From Jiangella mangrovi (GTDB taxonomy: Bacteria; Actinomycetota; Actinomycetes; Jiangellales; Jiangellaceae), in NCBI RefSeq assembly GCF_014204975.1, contig NZ_JACHMM010000001.1, positions 3,968,001-4,032,000 on the forward strand: 64,000 bases of DNA, read 5' to 3'. Each line of letters begins with the position of its first letter. Positions within the stretch are counted from its first letter, which is position 1. This document shows positions 48,336 to 59,116 of the stretch, in pieces. The position numbers were made by a program, and so were the translations under genes. The notes under the pieces were generated by a model. The model ran no database searches. It was not told the origin of the DNA and saw only the letters and a list, made by a program, of their open reading frames with translations.

Positions 48336-49676
48336 GTGGCCGAACAGCTCACCATCACCGCCGCCGAGGTCCACGCCGTGCTGGGCAAGCACCTGCTGAC
48401 CGACGGCTTCAAGCTGGTCCTCGACACCGACGCGAGCCAGGGCAGCTGGCTGGTCGACGCGCGCGACGGCAAGCGCTACCTCGACATGTACACGTTCTTC
48501 GCGTCCGCGCCGCTGGGCTGCAACCCGCCCGGCCTGGTCGACGACATCGCGTTCATGGACCTGCTGGGCCGGGTCGCCGCGAACAAGCCGGCCAACCCCG
48601 ACATCTACTCGATCCACCTCGCCGAGTTCACCGAGACGTTCGTCCGGGTGCTCGGCGACCCGCGGCTGCCGCACCTGTTCTTCGTCGAGGGCGGCGCGCT
48701 CGCCGTCGAGAACGCGCTCAAGGTCGCCTTCGACTGGAAGAGCCGGCAGAACGAGGCGAACGGCCGCGACCCGCGCCTGGGCACCCGCGTCATGCACCTC
48801 ACCCGCGCCTTCCACGGCCGCAGCGGCTACACCATGTCGCTGACGAACACCGAGCCGAACAAGACCGCCCGGTTCCCGCAGTTCGACTGGCCGCGCATCG
48901 ACGTCCCGGCCATCACGTTCCCGCTCGAGGACCACCTGGCCGAGGTCGAGGCGGCGGAACAGCACGCCCTCGAGCAGGCCCGCGCCGCCTTCGCGGCCCA
49001 CCCGCACGACATCGCCGCATTCATCTGCGAGCCCATCCAGGGCGAGGGCGGCGACAACCACATGCGCCCCGAGTTCCTGCAGGCCATGCAGGCCCTCGTG
49101 CACCAGCACGACGCCCTGTTCATCGTCGACGAGGTCCAGACCGGCGCCGGCACCACGGGGTCCGCCTGGGCGTACCAGCAGCTCGGCCTGAAGCCCGACG
49201 TCGTCGCGTTCTCGAAGAAGACCCAGGTCGGCGGCGTCATGGCCGGCGGCCGGGTCGACGAGGTCCCCGACAACGTCTTCACCGTGTCCGGCCGCATCAA
49301 CTCCACGTGGGGCGGCGGGCTCGCCGACATGGTCCGGTCGCGCCGGCTGCTCGAGATCATCGAGAAGGACGGGCTCATCGAGGCCGCCGGCCCCAAGGGC
49401 GAGCGGTTCCTTGCCGGGCTGCGCGCCGTCGCCACCGAGACCGGCGCCGTCAGCAACGTGCGCGGCCGCGGCCTCATGCTCGCCTGCGACCTGCCCGACG
49501 GCGCCACCCGCGACGCCGTCGTGGCCGACCTTCGCGAGAACGAGCAGGTCATCGCCCTTCCCTGTGGCGGGCGCGCGATCCGCTTCCGTCCCGCACTGTC
49601 GGTGACCGATGATGAGATCGACCTCGCCGTCGCGGCGCTCGGCCGCGCCGTCGCCCGTCAGTTCGCCAGCGTCTGA
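48336..49676 (+). CDS. lat: L-lysine 6-aminotransferase
   Basis: A 446-residue class III aminotransferase. The opening VHAVLGKHLLTDGFKLVLD, YTFFASAPLGCNPPG and FFVEGGALAVENALKVAFDW are typical of LAT (EC 2.6.1.36), which converts lysine and 2-oxoglutarate to 2-aminoadipate semialdehyde and glutamate. VAFSKKTQVGG has the PLP lysine and VDEVQTG the pyridine-N aspartate. It starts a four-gene operon whose later genes continue the pathway. GTG 48336 follows GGAGG by 10 bases. In beta-lactam producers LAT makes aminoadipate for antibiotics; here catabolic neighbours point to degradation. Confidence 0.92.
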   Translation: MAEQLTITAAEVHAVLGKHLLTDGFKLVLDTDASQGSWLVDARDGKRYLDMYTFFASAPLGCNPPGLVDDIAFMDLLGRVAANKPANPDIYSIHLAEFTETFVRVLGDPRLPHLFFVEGGALAVENALKVAFDWKSRQNEANGRDPRLGTRVMHLTRAFHGRSGYTMSLTNTEPNKTARFPQFDWPRIDVPAITFPLEDHLAEVEAAEQHALEQARAAFAAHPHDIAAFICEPIQGEGGDNHMRPEFLQAMQALVHQHDALFIVDEVQTGAGTTGSAWAYQQLGLKPDVVAFSKKTQVGGVMAGGRVDEVPDNVFTVSGRINSTWGGGLADMVRSRRLLEIIEKDGLIEAAGPKGERFLAGLRAVATETGAVSNVRGRGLMLACDLPDGATRDAVVADLRENEQVIALPCGGRAIRFRPALSVTDDEIDLAVAALGRAVARQFASV

Positions 49677-49697
49677 GCACCGAGGAGCACAAGCACC

Positions 49698-51254
49698 GTG
49701 ACCCGCACCGTCACCTCCGTCGTCGACGGCAAGGCCGTCTTTGATTCGACACAGCCGATCGCGCAATCGCTCAACCCGGCTGACCTCGACGACGTCGTCG
49801 GCGAGGTCGCCCTCGCGCCGGGACGCATCTTCACCGCCGCCGCCGTCGTCGCCCGCAATGCTCAGCGCGCGTGGGCCGACATCCCGGCGCCGGTCCGCGG
49901 CCGGGCCATCGCCCACATCGGCCGCGTGGTCGAGGAGAACGCCGAGTCGCTGGCCCGGCTGGTGACCCGCGAGATCGGCAAGCCGTACGCCGAGGCCCTC
50001 GGCGAGGTCCGCGAGATCGTCGACACCTGCGACTTCTTCCTGGGCGAGGGCCGGCGTCTCTACGGCCAGACGGTGCCCAGCGAGATGCCCGACAAGCAGC
50101 TGTTCACGTTCCGCAACCCGGTCGGCACGGTCGCCGTCATCACCGCCGGCAACTTCCCGGTGGCGGTGCCGTCCTGGTACATCGTCCCGGCGCTGCTCAC
50201 CGGCAACACCATCGTCTGGAAGCCGGCCGAGTACTCCGCGGTCGTCTCCAACGCCTTCCACGACCTGTTCGTCAAGGGCGGCGGGCTGCCCGACGGCGTG
50301 TTCAACCTGGTGCACGCCGACGGCGCCGAGACGTACGCCGGCCTGCAGGAGTCGCTCGAGCTCGGCTACATCGACAAGGTCGGCTTCACCGGCTCGTCCG
50401 AGGTGGGCCGCGAGATCGGCGCGCTCACGGGCCGGCACCTGCAGACCGCCTGCCTCGAGCTGGGCGGCAAGAACCCGCTGGTCATCGCTCCGAGCGCCGA
50501 CCTCGACCTCGCCGTCGAGGGCGCGCTGTTCTCCGGCTTCGGCACCGCCGGGCAGCGCTGCACGTCGCTGGGCACGGTCATCGTGCACGAGTCGCTGCAC
50601 GACGAGTTCATCCGCCGCTACGGCGCGGCGGTCGACGCCGCCGCCGTCGGCGACCCGACGCAGGACGTCCTCATGGGCCCGCTGCTCGACGCCAAGTTCG
50701 CTGAGCGGTACGAGAAGTTCCTCGGCTGGGTCCAGCCGCAGCACACCGTGCTCGGGCGCACCGGCCGCATCACCGGCGCCAACCCGCGCGACGGCTTCGT
50801 CGGCGACCCCGCGAAGGGTCTCTTCTACCACCCGGTGGTCGTCGACGGCGTCAGCCCCGGCGACGAGCTGTTCGACCAGGAGACGTTCGGCCCCATCGTC
50901 GGCGTCACCTCGTACTCGACGCTCGACGAGGCCATCGACCTCGCCAACGCGCCCGGCTACGGCCTGTCCAGCAGCATCTACACCACCGACCCGGCTGACG
51001 CGTTCGCGTACCGGCGCGGCATCTCCGCCGGCATGGTGAGCATCAACAACTCCACGTCCGGCGCCGAGGCGCACCTGCCGTTCGGCGGCAACGGCAAGTC
51101 CGGCAACGGGTCGCGGCAGTCCGGCATGTGGGTGCTCGACCAGTTCACCCGCTGGCAGTCGGTCAACTGGGACTACTCCGGGCGGCTGCAGAAGGCGCAG
51201 ATGGACGTCGCCGACCTCGACGCGGATCTGGCCTTCCGGCTCGACGAGTCGTGA
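49698..51254 (+). CDS. Aldehyde dehydrogenase, probable 2-aminoadipate semialdehyde dehydrogenase
   Basis: A 518-residue NAD(P)-dependent aldehyde dehydrogenase. FRNPVGTVAVITAGNFPVA, KPAEYSA, FTGSSEVGREI, CLELGGKNP (catalytic Glu) and GTAGQRCTSLGTV (catalytic Cys) are present. It probably oxidises the LAT product to 2-aminoadipate. It starts 21 bases after lat with GAGGAG upstream and its stop overlaps the next start (GTGA). The assignment to the semialdehyde is by context. Confidence 0.9.
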   Translation: MTRTVTSVVDGKAVFDSTQPIAQSLNPADLDDVVGEVALAPGRIFTAAAVVARNAQRAWADIPAPVRGRAIAHIGRVVEENAESLARLVTREIGKPYAEALGEVREIVDTCDFFLGEGRRLYGQTVPSEMPDKQLFTFRNPVGTVAVITAGNFPVAVPSWYIVPALLTGNTIVWKPAEYSAVVSNAFHDLFVKGGGLPDGVFNLVHADGAETYAGLQESLELGYIDKVGFTGSSEVGREIGALTGRHLQTACLELGGKNPLVIAPSADLDLAVEGALFSGFGTAGQRCTSLGTVIVHESLHDEFIRRYGAAVDAAAVGDPTQDVLMGPLLDAKFAERYEKFLGWVQPQHTVLGRTGRITGANPRDGFVGDPAKGLFYHPVVVDGVSPGDELFDQETFGPIVGVTSYSTLDEAIDLANAPGYGLSSSIYTTDPADAFAYRRGISAGMVSINNSTSGAEAHLPFGGNGKSGNGSRQSGMWVLDQFTRWQSVNWDYSGRLQKAQMDVADLDADLAFRLDES

Positions 51255-53398
51255 GCACCACCGCCGCGCTCGAGGAGTCGCTGCTTGCGGCGATCTCGGC
51301 GCTGCCCGCGGGGACGGCGTCGGCTGCCGGTTCCGCCGGGGTGCTGCAGGGCGTCTTCGACGCGCAGGTGACCAGCCGGCACCTCGACGTCGTCGCGCGT
51401 GAGCTGCAGGCGGCGGGGCGCGGCTTCTACACCATCGGGTCAGCGGGGCACGAGGCGAACGCGCTGGTCGCGACGGCGCTTCGGCCCAGCGACCCGGCGC
51501 TGCTGCATTACCGCTCGGGCGGCTTCTACGCCGCCCGGGCGGCCCAGGTGCCGGGCAGCACGCCGGTCCGCGACGTGCTGCAAAGCCTCATGGGCGCCGC
51601 CGACGAGCCGATCGCCGGCGGGCGGCACAAGGTGTTCGGGAACGCGGCGCTGTCGGTCATCCCGCAGACGTCGACCATCGCCTCGCATCTGCCGCGCGCG
51701 GTCGGGCTGGCCATCGCGCTGCACCGGGCGCACCGGCTCGGCGTGTCCGTGCCCTGGCCGGACGACGCCGTCGTCGCGTGCTCGTTCGGCGACGCGTCGG
51801 CCAACCACTCGACCGCCGTCGGGGCGATCAACGCCGCCCTGAACACGGCGTTCCGCGGGCTGCCGGTGCCGGTGCTGTTCGTCTGCGAGGACAACGGGCT
51901 CGGCATCTCGGTCCCGACGCCGGCCGGCTGGGTCGAGACGGCGTACGGGTCGCGGCCGGGGCTCACCTACGTGCGGGTCGACGGGTCGGACCCGTTGACG
52001 GCGCTCACGGGGGCTCGGCGGGCGGTGGGCTACGTCCGGTCCGAGCGCAAGCCCGCGTTCCTGCACCTGCAGACCGTCCGCTACCTCGGGCACGCCGGCA
52101 GCGACGCGGAGATCAGCTACCGCACGACCACCGAGATCGCGGCCGACCACGCCCGCGACCCGATCCTGGGGACGGCGCGCGCACTGGTCGCCGCGGGGGC
52201 CGCGACGCCGGCCGAGCTGCTGACCCGGTACCGCGAGCTGCGGGCCGAGGTCGACGCCGTCGCCTCGTCGTTGCGGGGCGCCCGCACCCTCGGGTCCGCG
52301 CCCGAGATCGTCGCCCCGCTCTCCCCGCGCACACCGGACGCCGTCGCCGTCGCCGCCCGTTCGCTCTATGACGAATCGCGCGGCGGCGAGCCGGCGACGC
52401 TGGCCGAGTCGATCAACGCCACGCTGTCGGCGGCGCTCGAGCGTGACCGCCGGGTCGTCGTCTTCGGCGAGGACGTGGGGCGCAAGGGCGGCGTCTACGG
52501 CGTCACCCGCGGCCTGGCGCGCAAGCACGGCCGGGCCCGGGTCTTCGACACGCTGCTGGACGAGCAGTCGATCCTCGGCCTCGGGCTGGGCGCGGGCCTG
52601 GCCGGGCTGCTCCCCGTCCCCGAGATCCAGTACCTCGCCTACCTGCACAACGCCGAGGACCAGCTGCGCGGCGAGGCGGCGTCGCTGGCGTTCTTCTCCA
52701 CCGGGCAGTACCGCAACCCGCTGGTCGTGCGGATCGCCGGGCTGGCCTACCAGCGCGGGTTCGGCGGGCACTTCCACAACGACAACGGCGTCGCCGTGCT
52801 GCGCGACATCCCGGGCCTGGTGGTCGCCTGCCCGTCGCGCGGTGACGACGCCGCCGCCATGCTGCGGACGTGTCTGGCGGCCGCTGTGGTCGATGGAACC
52901 GTCTCGGCGTTCCTCGAGCCGATCGCGCTCTACCACACCCGTGACCTGCATGGGGACGGCGACGGCGCCTGGCTCTCTGTTGACGGTGGGGAGCATGTGC
53001 CGATCGGCCGGGCGCGTGTGTACGGGGCGGGTGCCGACCTGACCATCGTCACCTTCGGAAACGGCGTGCCGATGAGCCTGCGGGTCGCGAAGCGGCTGGC
53101 CGAGCGGGACATCGCGGCGCAGGTGCTGGACCTGCGCTGGCTGGCGCCGCTGCCGGTCGAAGACATCGTCCGCGAGGCCAACCTCACCGGCAGAGTGCTG
53201 GTGGCCGACGAGACCCGCCACTCCGGCGGGGTCGGCGAGGGCGTCATCACCGCGCTGGTCGAGGCCGGCTACCAGGGCCGCATCGCCCGGGTCGCCAGCC
53301 ACGACAGCTTCGTGCCGCTGGGCAGCGCCGCGAACCACGTGCTGCTCGGCGAGCAGGACATCGAGAGGGCCGCCGTCGAGCTGGCCGAGAAGGAGTGA
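51251..53398 (+). CDS. Fused alpha-beta 2-oxoacid dehydrogenase E1, candidate 2-oxoadipate dehydrogenase
   Basis: A 715-residue thiamine diphosphate enzyme. Residues 1-355 match the alpha subunit of branched-chain-type E1 (TIGSAGHEANALVATALRPS; ThDP/Mg site GDASAN at 180-185 ending in EDN at 213-215). Residues 385-715 match the beta subunit (LERDRRVVVFGEDVGRKGGVYGVTRGL, FGGHFHNDNGVAVLRDIPG, VLDLRWLAPLPVEDI). Placed between a lysine-to-aminoadipate pair and glutaryl-CoA dehydrogenase, the missing reaction is 2-oxoadipate to glutaryl-CoA, so this is the proposed substrate. No E2 or E3 is in the window; housekeeping ones may serve. Confidence 0.85.
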   Translation: MSTTAALEESLLAAISALPAGTASAAGSAGVLQGVFDAQVTSRHLDVVARELQAAGRGFYTIGSAGHEANALVATALRPSDPALLHYRSGGFYAARAAQVPGSTPVRDVLQSLMGAADEPIAGGRHKVFGNAALSVIPQTSTIASHLPRAVGLAIALHRAHRLGVSVPWPDDAVVACSFGDASANHSTAVGAINAALNTAFRGLPVPVLFVCEDNGLGISVPTPAGWVETAYGSRPGLTYVRVDGSDPLTALTGARRAVGYVRSERKPAFLHLQTVRYLGHAGSDAEISYRTTTEIAADHARDPILGTARALVAAGAATPAELLTRYRELRAEVDAVASSLRGARTLGSAPEIVAPLSPRTPDAVAVAARSLYDESRGGEPATLAESINATLSAALERDRRVVVFGEDVGRKGGVYGVTRGLARKHGRARVFDTLLDEQSILGLGLGAGLAGLLPVPEIQYLAYLHNAEDQLRGEAASLAFFSTGQYRNPLVVRIAGLAYQRGFGGHFHNDNGVAVLRDIPGLVVACPSRGDDAAAMLRTCLAAAVVDGTVSAFLEPIALYHTRDLHGDGDGAWLSVDGGEHVPIGRARVYGAGADLTIVTFGNGVPMSLRVAKRLAERDIAAQVLDLRWLAPLPVEDIVREANLTGRVLVADETRHSGGVGEGVITALVEAGYQGRIARVASHDSFVPLGSAANHVLLGEQDIERAAVELAEKE

Positions 53399-53399
53399 C

Positions 53400-54575
53400 A
53401 TGACCTCGCCCCTGGAACTGCTGAGCGCCGAGCACCTGCTCAGCGAGGAGGAGCGCGACCTGCGCGACGCCGTCGCCCACTTCGTCGACGACCGCGTCCG
53501 CCCGTCGATCGCGGACTGGTACGAGTCCGGGCTGTCGCCGTCCGCGGTGCGCGACCTGGCCCTCGAGGCCGGGAAGCTCGGGCTGCTCGGCATGCACCTG
53601 ACCGGCTACGGCTGCGCCGGCACCAACGCCGTCTCGTACGGCCTCGCCTGCATGGAGCTGGAGGCCGGCGACTCCGGCGTCCGCTCGCTGGTGTCGGTGC
53701 AGGGGTCGCTGGCGATGTTCGCGATCTGGAAGTTCGGCTCCGAGGAGCAGAAGCAGCAGTGGCTGCCGGGGATGGCGTCCGGCGAGCTGATCGGGTGCTT
53801 CGGGCTGACCGAGCCCGACTTCGGCTCCAACCCGGGCGGCATGCGCACCCGCGCCCGCCGCGACGGCGACGACTGGGTGCTCGACGGCACCAAGATGTGG
53901 ATCACCAACGGCTCGGTCGCCGACGTCGCGGTGGTGTGGGCGCGCTGTGTCGACGACGATGCCGTGCGCGGCTTCCTGGTGCCGGCGGGGACGCCCGGGT
54001 TCTCGGCACCTTCGATCGGGCGCAAGCTGTCGCTGCGGGCGTCGGTGACGAGCGAGCTCGTGCTGGAGGGAGTCCGGCTGCCCGCCGACGCCGTCCTGCC
54101 CGAGGTGTCCTCGCTGCGGGGGCCGCTGTCGTGCCTGAACGAGGCCCGCTTCGGCATCGTGTTCGGCGCGCTGGGCGCCGCGCGGGACTGCCTGGCGGCG
54201 GCCCTGTCGTACGTCGGGACCCGCGAAGTGTTCGACCGGCCGCTCGCGTCGTTCCAGCTCACCCAGGCCAAGCTCGCCGACATGGCGCTGGAGCTGCAGA
54301 AGGGCTACCTGCTGGCCCTGCACCTCGGCCGGCTGAAGGACTCGGGTTCGCTGACGCCGCAGCAGGTGAGCCTCGGGAAGCTGAACAACGTCCGCGAGGC
54401 GCTCGCGATCGCCCGCGAGTGCCGGACGATCCTGGGTGCCAACGGCATCACGCTGGAGTACCCGGTGCTGCGCCACGCCAACAACCTCGAGTCGGTGCTG
54501 ACGTACGAGGGCACCAGCGAGGTGCACCAGCTGGTCATCGGCCAGGCCCTGACCGGCCACAGCGCCTTCAGCTGA
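53400..54575 (+). CDS. gcdH: Glutaryl-CoA dehydrogenase
   Basis: A 391-residue acyl-CoA dehydrogenase. It follows human GCDH closely: R95 and S99 in DSGVRSLVSVQGS correspond to the glutaryl-carboxylate-binding Arg and Ser; CFGLTEPDFGSNPGGMRTRA binds FAD; E370 in TYEGTSEVH is the catalytic base. It oxidises and decarboxylates glutaryl-CoA to crotonyl-CoA. ATG 53400 lies one base after the E1 stop. Last gene of the lysine operon. Confidence 0.93.
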   Translation: MTSPLELLSAEHLLSEEERDLRDAVAHFVDDRVRPSIADWYESGLSPSAVRDLALEAGKLGLLGMHLTGYGCAGTNAVSYGLACMELEAGDSGVRSLVSVQGSLAMFAIWKFGSEEQKQQWLPGMASGELIGCFGLTEPDFGSNPGGMRTRARRDGDDWVLDGTKMWITNGSVADVAVVWARCVDDDAVRGFLVPAGTPGFSAPSIGRKLSLRASVTSELVLEGVRLPADAVLPEVSSLRGPLSCLNEARFGIVFGALGAARDCLAAALSYVGTREVFDRPLASFQLTQAKLADMALELQKGYLLALHLGRLKDSGSLTPQQVSLGKLNNVREALAIARECRTILGANGITLEYPVLRHANNLESVLTYEGTSEVHQLVIGQALTGHSAFS

Positions 54576-54585
54576 CCCCGTCCCT

Positions 54586-54639
54586 CATGATCATCCAGGA
54601 TTAGTGGCGCTATAGCCCCACCAATCCTGGATGATCATG
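54586..54639. terminator. Long palindrome ending the lysine operon (family B)
   Basis: CATGATCATCCAGGATT (54586-54602) and its exact complement (54623-54639) extend inward to GTGG/CCAC with one mismatch. It lies between gcdH and the convergent Lrp gene, 11 bases after the gcdH stop, and can stop both. Confidence 0.8.
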
Positions 54640-54673
54640 GCCGCGTCGGCGCTCCGCGGCCTTGCCGCCCCTC

Positions 54674-54723
54674 GATGGCGGGCGGTTTGGTGGCGCCAGG
54701 GCGCCACTCATCCACCCGCCATC
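54674..54723. repeat. Nested palindrome, family D, copy 2
   Basis: Outer arms GATGGCGGG/CCCGCCATC (54674-54682, 54715-54723) and inner arms GTGGCGCC/GGCGCCAC around a 2-base centre. The core GGGCGGTTTGGTGG is shared with 23955-24007. It lies just after the Lrp stop at 54737 on the minus strand. Confidence 0.7.
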
Positions 54724-54736
54724 CCGCACCCCGCCG

Positions 54737-55177
54737 TCAGGCTGTCATGGGGCGGTTCTCGTAGGCCGTCGACAGGACGATGGTGGTGCGGGTGGAGACG
54801 TTCGCCGACGACCGGATGCGGGCCAGCAGGTCCTCGAGGTCGGCGGGACGCCCCACCCGCACCTTGAGGATGTAGTTCTCGTCGCCGGCGACGGAGTAGC
54901 AGGCCTCGATCTCGGGGATGCCGGCCAGCCGGTCCGGTGAGTCGTCGGGCTGGCTCGGGTCGATCGGCTTGATGGAGATGAACGCCGTCAGCGGGAGCCC
55001 CACCGCCTCGTGGTCGACGACGACCGAGTAGCCGCGGATGACGCCGCGCTCCTCGAGCCGTCGGACGCGCTGGTGCACGGCCGACGTGGACAGGCCGGTG
55101 GACTTGCCGAGATCGGTGTAGCTCATCCGGCCGTCCCGCATCAGCAACGCCACGATCTTCCTGTCGATGTCCTCCAC
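54737..55177 (-). CDS. Lrp/AsnC-family transcriptional regulator
   Basis: A 146-residue regulator: helix-turn-helix at 4-50 (IDRKIVALLMRDGRMSYTDL, LSTSAVHQRVRRLEERGVI) and an amino-acid-binding RAM domain (TAFISIKPIDPS, IEACYSVAGDENYILKVRV). It lies tail-to-tail with the lysine degradation operon, so lysine or aminoadipate is the likely ligand. GTG 55177 is preceded by TAGAGT at 55189-55184 ending 6 bases away, so the transcript is probably leaderless. Confidence 0.92.
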   Translation of the reverse strand: MEDIDRKIVALLMRDGRMSYTDLGKSTGLSTSAVHQRVRRLEERGVIRGYSVVVDHEAVGLPLTAFISIKPIDPSQPDDSPDRLAGIPEIEACYSVAGDENYILKVRVGRPADLEDLLARIRSSANVSTRTTIVLSTAYENRPMTA

Positions 55178-59060: not shown

Positions 59061-59116
59061 CCATGATCATCAAGGATTCACCACACCATAGGGGGTCGGA
59101 TCCTTGATGATCATGG
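59061..59116. terminator. Dispersed palindrome, family B, after the FAD oxidase
   Basis: CCATGATCATCAAGGAT (59061-59077) and its exact complement (59100-59116), loop 22 bases. The right arm shares TGATCATGG with the next palindrome. Confidence 0.8.

Follow-up and report, generated by a model that had tools for sequence, protein, structure and literature searches.

Which enzyme would carry 2-oxoadipate to glutaryl-coenzyme A (CoA) in a bacterium that degrades lysine via 2-aminoadipate? The question is raised by a locus of the actinobacterium Jiangella mangrovi, lying in a window of 64,000 nucleotides (positions 3,968,001 to 4,032,000 of contig NZ_JACHMM010000001.1; features of the locus are numbered from the first base of this stretch) of a 7.16-Mb genome assembled as a single contig. 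Here, four forward-strand genes form a compact operon: lat, encoding L-lysine 6-aminotransferase (LAT; GTG 48336 to stop 49676, 446 aa, with GGAGG upstream); a gene for an aldehyde dehydrogenase (ALDH; GTG 49698 to 51254, 518 aa); a gene for a fused alpha-beta E1 dependent on thiamine diphosphate (ThDP; GTG 51251 to 53398, 715 aa); and gcdH, encoding glutaryl-CoA dehydrogenase (GcdH; ATG 53400 to 54575, 391 aa). Between lat and the ALDH gene lie 21 bases, the E1 start overlaps the ALDH stop by 4 bases, and a single base separates the E1 gene from gcdH; with the lrp gene that closes the locus, all five genes stand where the preliminary description had placed them. An order-level search matched the E1 in 21 of 22 genomes, and in the relatives that were retrieved the ALDH gene lies upstream and gcdH downstream of it wherever the stretch extends that far; hence, the lat-ALDH-E1-gcdH arrangement is not a product of chance. 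Likewise, in the genomes of the family included in our survey of the class, lat lies on the same strand immediately upstream of the ALDH gene. We propose that the fused E1 is quite probably the E1 of a 2-oxoadipate dehydrogenase with E2 and E3 borrowed from elsewhere, a function that we infer from gene linkage and co-occurrence.

The two ends of the pathway are fixed, because LAT passes a curated cut-off and GcdH closely matches solved enzymes. LAT scores 686.3 bits against the TIGR03251 (L-lysine 6-aminotransferase) equivalog model, whose cut-off is 520.8; members of this family transfer the amino group of lysine to 2-oxoglutarate, yielding 2-aminoadipate-6-semialdehyde or its cyclic form, piperideine-6-carboxylate (P6C). 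The best matches of GcdH in the Protein Data Bank (PDB) are the solved mycobacterial glutaryl-CoA dehydrogenases 3swo and 3sf6 (E about 1e-180), and it carries the motifs of the decarboxylating enzymes, DSGVRS at 91-96 and YEGT at 369-372; the Tyr-Glu of the latter and the DSGxRS residues have catalytic roles in this family, which consumes glutaryl-CoA.

The ALDH calls for a more qualified assignment. Its best NCBIfam model is NF050084 (Pcd) at 343.3 bits, below the cut-off of 730, and it is therefore not filed as Pcd; among PDB entries the closest is 6fjx, an ALDH from Thermus, followed by Pcd (6rtr) and ALDH7A1. It was aligned with antiquitin (2jg7), to whose aligned motifs we assigned the human ALDH7A1 residue numbers. 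In ALDH7A1, aminoadipate is contacted by Glu121, Phe168, Trp175, Arg301, Thr303, Gly461, Ala462 and Phe468 (PMC11362210). The Jiangella enzyme retains all eight. Further, in our survey of 197 genomes of the class, of which 42 encode the fused E1 and 155 do not, 56 encode LAT; 45 of these 56 have the ALDH, and every one has either it or a Pcd-like enzyme. Given the retained contacts and this coupling to LAT, the protein most likely oxidizes aminoadipate semialdehyde and represents a dehydrogenase lineage distinct from Pcd and ALDH7. Thus, of the earlier claim that LAT and the dehydrogenase together give 2-aminoadipate, the LAT half holds by a curated test, whereas the ALDH falls short of the Pcd cut-off and takes its role from context and residues.

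The E1 combines PF00676, PF02779 and PF02780 (the E1_dh, Transket_pyr and Transketolase_C domains) in one chain with no E2 or lipoyl domain, and its ThDP-binding and catalytic residues are conserved as in alpha2-beta2-type E1s. Its PDB sequence matches are confined to alpha2-beta2 E1s of the pyruvate dehydrogenase (PDH) and branched-chain 2-oxoacid dehydrogenase (BCKDH) type, transketolases and DXS; no chain of the 2-oxoglutarate dehydrogenase (OGDH)/SucA/DHTKD1 type is found among these 42 matches (E <= 0.001). The AlphaFold model (pLDDT 85.7, pTM 0.88) agrees, its beta half superposing on the PDH E1 beta chain 1w85_B (Foldseek, TMt 0.90). A scan of named genomes yielded over 570 relatives, and others came from further genomes of the class; alignment of 122 long members delineates a distinct, mostly actinobacterial family with many invariant columns. 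Counting from the codon at 51254, the invariant or near-invariant residues include H85, R124-H125-K126, H465-N466, R472 and H506; H125 aligns with a His found in some paralogues, and the family-invariant residues mostly differ from those at the aligned positions of the other E1s of the genome. The least confident loops of the model (121-123, 501-506 and 558-565) lie at or beside such residues. Our guess, from the alignment, is that the polar members of this set might bind the distal carboxylate of 2-oxoadipate. Separately, locus L002 (genome positions 6704905-6705792) encodes a second fused alpha-beta E1, about 30% identical and likewise without a linked E2.

The homology of the E1 to the alpha2-beta2 pyruvate and branched-chain E1s raises the alternative that it acts on branched-chain oxoacids, pyruvate or 2-oxoglutarate and that co-regulation alone accounts for its place among the lysine genes. 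We regard this as improbable: the genome already encodes three PDH/BCKDH-type complexes with linked E1 and E2 genes, along with a fused E1-E2 gene of the KGD type (369081-371198); the identity of the E1 to the others in the comparison, mostly paralogues from its own genome, is just 27-36%, and it departs from them at family-invariant polar positions; and, as set out below, it is repeatedly linked to lysine genes in different parts of the E1 tree.

We advance the following route. LAT would take the epsilon-amino group off lysine to give the semialdehyde or P6C, which the ALDH would oxidize to 2-aminoadipate. A transaminase encoded outside the operon is assumed to convert this to 2-oxoadipate, since the genome holds no orthologue of the amino-acid dehydrogenase or the flavin adenine dinucleotide (FAD)-dependent oxidase that accompany the E1 elsewhere (best matches 32% and 26%). 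The fused E1 would then decarboxylate 2-oxoadipate with ThDP and transfer the resulting glutaryl group onto the lipoyl domain of an E2 whose gene lies outside the operon; this shared E2 together with E3 would complete glutaryl-CoA formation, and GcdH would oxidize and decarboxylate the product to crotonyl-CoA, with Lrp probably regulating the gene set. In this scheme, the order of the genes, their families, the conservation of catalytic residues, the repeated linkage and the co-occurrence are observed, whereas we infer the substrates of the ALDH and the E1, the E2 and E3 partners, the transaminase and the regulation. Of five E2 genes in the genome, three lie beside other E1s, one is within the KGD-type fusion and one, at genome position 6616123, is an orphan; this orphan is the most likely partner of the E1, the alternative being another shared E2. 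For such sharing there is a precedent in man, where the 2-oxoglutarate and 2-oxoadipate complexes have components in common (PMC10415282). To have called the operon a complete route from lysine to crotonyl-CoA, in which the 2-oxoadipate step was the only unfilled chemistry beside a transamination, was an overstatement: the 2-aminoadipate transaminase, the E2 and the E3 are all missing from it.

The KGD-type fusion offers another candidate for the step: an enzyme of the KGD/OdhA type might handle 2-oxoadipate along with 2-oxoglutarate, leaving the E1 an accessory or different role. One report does describe overlapping activities for the mammalian 2-oxoglutarate and 2-oxoadipate dehydrogenases (PMC7002488); nevertheless, this would leave the position of the E1 in the operon and its recurrent linkage unexplained, and we hold it to be very improbable.

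The evidence of linkage comes from 97 E1 loci outside the closest group, in which genes within 10 kb of the E1 were collected. By a heuristic gene calling, and with some loci ending early at contig ends, at least one of six gene families of the lysine/pipecolate-aminoadipate-glutaryl-CoA route was found near the E1 in 22 of the 97, against a chance expectation roughly estimated at about two. The neighbors are the ALDH (16 loci), LAT (8), an FAD-dependent amine oxidase (7), gcdH (5), a dehydrogenase of the Glu/Leu/Phe/Val type (5) and Pcd (3); three further loci have a CoA-transferase only. As an empirical control, 31 other open reading frames of the window (of at least 250 aa) had no homologue at 50% identity in these loci. 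A tree built from 105 E1s requires linkage to have switched state 12 times or more. The arrangements vary: lat-ALDH-E1 in Streptomyces and in a family labeled f14; ALDH-oxidase-dehydrogenase-E1 in Saccharopolyspora (locus L042); gcdH-E1-Pcd-dehydrogenase-oxidase in a row at locus L125, where the Pcd passes NF050084 (792 against 730); an ALDH or Pcd gene divergent to the E1 in Actinomadura and Pseudonocardia; and gcdH-E1 in Mycolicibacterium vaccae. We lean towards the broader view that these bacterial E1s are devoted to 2-oxoadipate and have their origin inside the alpha2-beta2 PDH/BCKDH lineage, separate from that of DHTKD1. They would then provide the shared step of an actinobacterial lysine/pipecolate route that is modular, its other parts being interchangeable: LAT can stand in for an FAD-dependent oxidase, one ALDH lineage for the other, and an amino-acid dehydrogenase for a transaminase.

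Among these parts, the Glu/Leu/Phe/Val-family dehydrogenase stands beside the E1 and an ALDH or Pcd gene at L042 (7845-8996), L125 (13478-14641), L044, L047 and L050. It is a candidate 2-aminoadipate dehydrogenase replacing the transaminase; together with the FAD-dependent oxidase it may provide alternative ways into or out of 2-aminoadipate. Identification of the oxidase with AmaA was dropped (59 bits versus 600), and the protein is here at most a putative pipecolate oxidase. Another frequent neighbor, divergent to solitary E1s (cluster 2), looks like a secreted protein with repeats and is of no help here. At L140 (5701-11342), in a very small actinobacterial genome of 1.24 Mb, an ALDH-FAD oxidase-gcdH row with no fused E1 is accompanied by a divergent acetolactate-synthase-like ThDP enzyme, which may offer a different path between 2-oxoadipate and glutaryl-CoA.

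A CoA-transferase of the CaiB/BaiF type directly downstream of the E1 at three mycobacteria-like loci (L052, L059 and L126) brings up a different chemistry: the E1 might work as an E2-independent 2-oxoadipate decarboxylase, its product, glutarate semialdehyde, being oxidized to glutarate by the ALDH or another enzyme and then activated to glutaryl-CoA for GcdH by the CoA-transferase. That no E2 or E3 gene lies near the E1 in the neighborhoods examined speaks for such a decarboxylase and against a dehydrogenase, and the ALDH is the commonest partner of the E1. However, the Jiangella operon has neither a CoA-transferase nor a ligase; the ALDH has aminoadipate-binding residues and tracks LAT; and the CoA-transferase link is limited to one mycobacterial clade. 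On this balance, we judge E2-independent decarboxylation unlikely.

Across the class, LAT is present in 34 of the 42 genomes with the E1 versus 22 of the 155 without it; with the window's own family left out, the figures are 16 of 24 versus 22 of 155 (P = 2e-7; P values here ignore relatedness). An ALDH or a Pcd-like enzyme occurs in 40 of the 42.

Several observations weigh against reading the E1 as a 2-oxoadipate dehydrogenase component. First, 75 of the 97 E1 loci have none of the six route genes within 10 kb; that most homologues are thus unlinked to lysine genes also favors a different oxoacid as the substrate. Second, gcdH, which is common throughout the genomes of the class, is not associated with the E1 outside the family (16 of 24 versus 76 of 155, P = 0.13). 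Third, the expected sets are often incomplete: LAT is absent from 8 of the 24 E1 genomes outside the family; two genomes that are Actinoplanes-like on the tree (G098 and G182) have the E1 and gcdH with no LAT and neither type of ALDH; and gcdH is missing (at E <= 1e-90) although LAT, ALDH and E1 are present in family f14 and in four genomes (G034, G052, G066 and G117, loci L121-L124). Fourth, a Frankia-like family and mycobacteria-like genomes encode LAT but lack the E1. Finally, the argument from the substrate pocket is one of alignment only. Consequently, the expectation of the preliminary description that fused E1 homologues would go with lat and gcdH stands for LAT, given the association outside the family, but not for GcdH taken by itself or for the unlinked and LAT-less cases; its core notion of a dedicated fused E1 for 2-oxoadipate finds good support outside the window in the recurrent linkage and the co-occurrence with LAT and the dehydrogenase, while the many homologues that stand alone make the outcome of its refuting condition mixed. 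As a separate observation, the Frankia-like loci L138 and L139 have lat-ALDH with no E1, and gcdH is mostly absent there.

How does the proposed enzyme compare with known systems? The human 2-oxoadipate dehydrogenase complex, with DHTKD1 as its E1a, is alike in the proposed reaction, in its place in lysine catabolism and in having an E1 without an E2 of its own. However, DHTKD1 is of the OGDH/SucA lineage, whereas the Jiangella protein is of the alpha2-beta2 PDH/BCKDH type with a C-terminal PF02780 domain. With the alpha2-beta2 E1s from Thermus (1umd), human (1dtw) and Geobacillus (1w85), it shares the fold, the positions of the catalytic His and Arg and the ThDP motifs; in contrast to them, it joins alpha and beta into a single chain, lacks a linked E2 and has different invariant residues in the cofactor and substrate segments, the identity being about 30-36%. 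The D-lysine/pipecolate route of Pseudomonas putida likewise includes the conversion of 2-aminoadipate to 2-oxoadipate. There, the end is HglS, which turns 2-oxoadipate into D-2-hydroxyglutarate (PMC7286885); since the Jiangella genome has no HglS, this fate was ruled out. In Agrobacterium, passages of one study that do not name the enzyme give physiological hints that 2-oxoadipate feeds glutaryl-CoA (PMC7645780). In the open-access literature, 2-oxoadipate dehydrogenase is essentially animal DHTKD1 and the bacterial fate of 2-oxoadipate is mainly HglS; a dedicated bacterial 2-oxoadipate dehydrogenase E1 was not found there, subscription papers lying outside the search. The reaction and the type of complex are known, and what would be new are the candidate enzyme lineage, the fused form and the modular operons. 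Most of what is known of LAT itself comes from beta-lactam biosynthesis and from the persistence of mycobacteria. If the proposal is true, it would name a missing enzyme for hundreds of mostly actinobacterial genomes, correct annotations that follow pyruvate or branched-chain E1 models, point to an independent origin of 2-oxoadipate specificity and tie LAT to carbon catabolism via GcdH.

The lrp gene (reverse strand, 55177 to 54737), convergent to gcdH, encodes a regulator of the Lrp/AsnC family (146 aa; PF13404 and PF01037), probably an amino-acid-responsive regulator of the locus. Its homologues adjoin lat at loci L054 and L097. In mycobacteria, LrpA is encoded next to lat and binds the DNA upstream of that gene (PMC4726150). 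This lat-lrpA locus (Rv3290c region), which has an ALDH of the Pcd type close by, shares LAT, an adjoining Lrp and an aminoadipate-semialdehyde dehydrogenase with the locus of Jiangella; the latter differs in the lineage of its ALDH and in adding the E1 and gcdH within the operon. Between gcdH and lrp lies a 52-bp palindromic repeat (54587-54638, no strand), which recurs at 59063-59114 of the window, its arms co-varying as CAGGAT/ATCCTG or AAGGAT/ATCCTT. A strict pattern finds at least 14 copies in the whole genome; accordingly, an operon-specific site was ruled out, and the sequence suggests an element like a repetitive extragenic palindrome (REP) or a miniature inverted-repeat transposable element (MITE).

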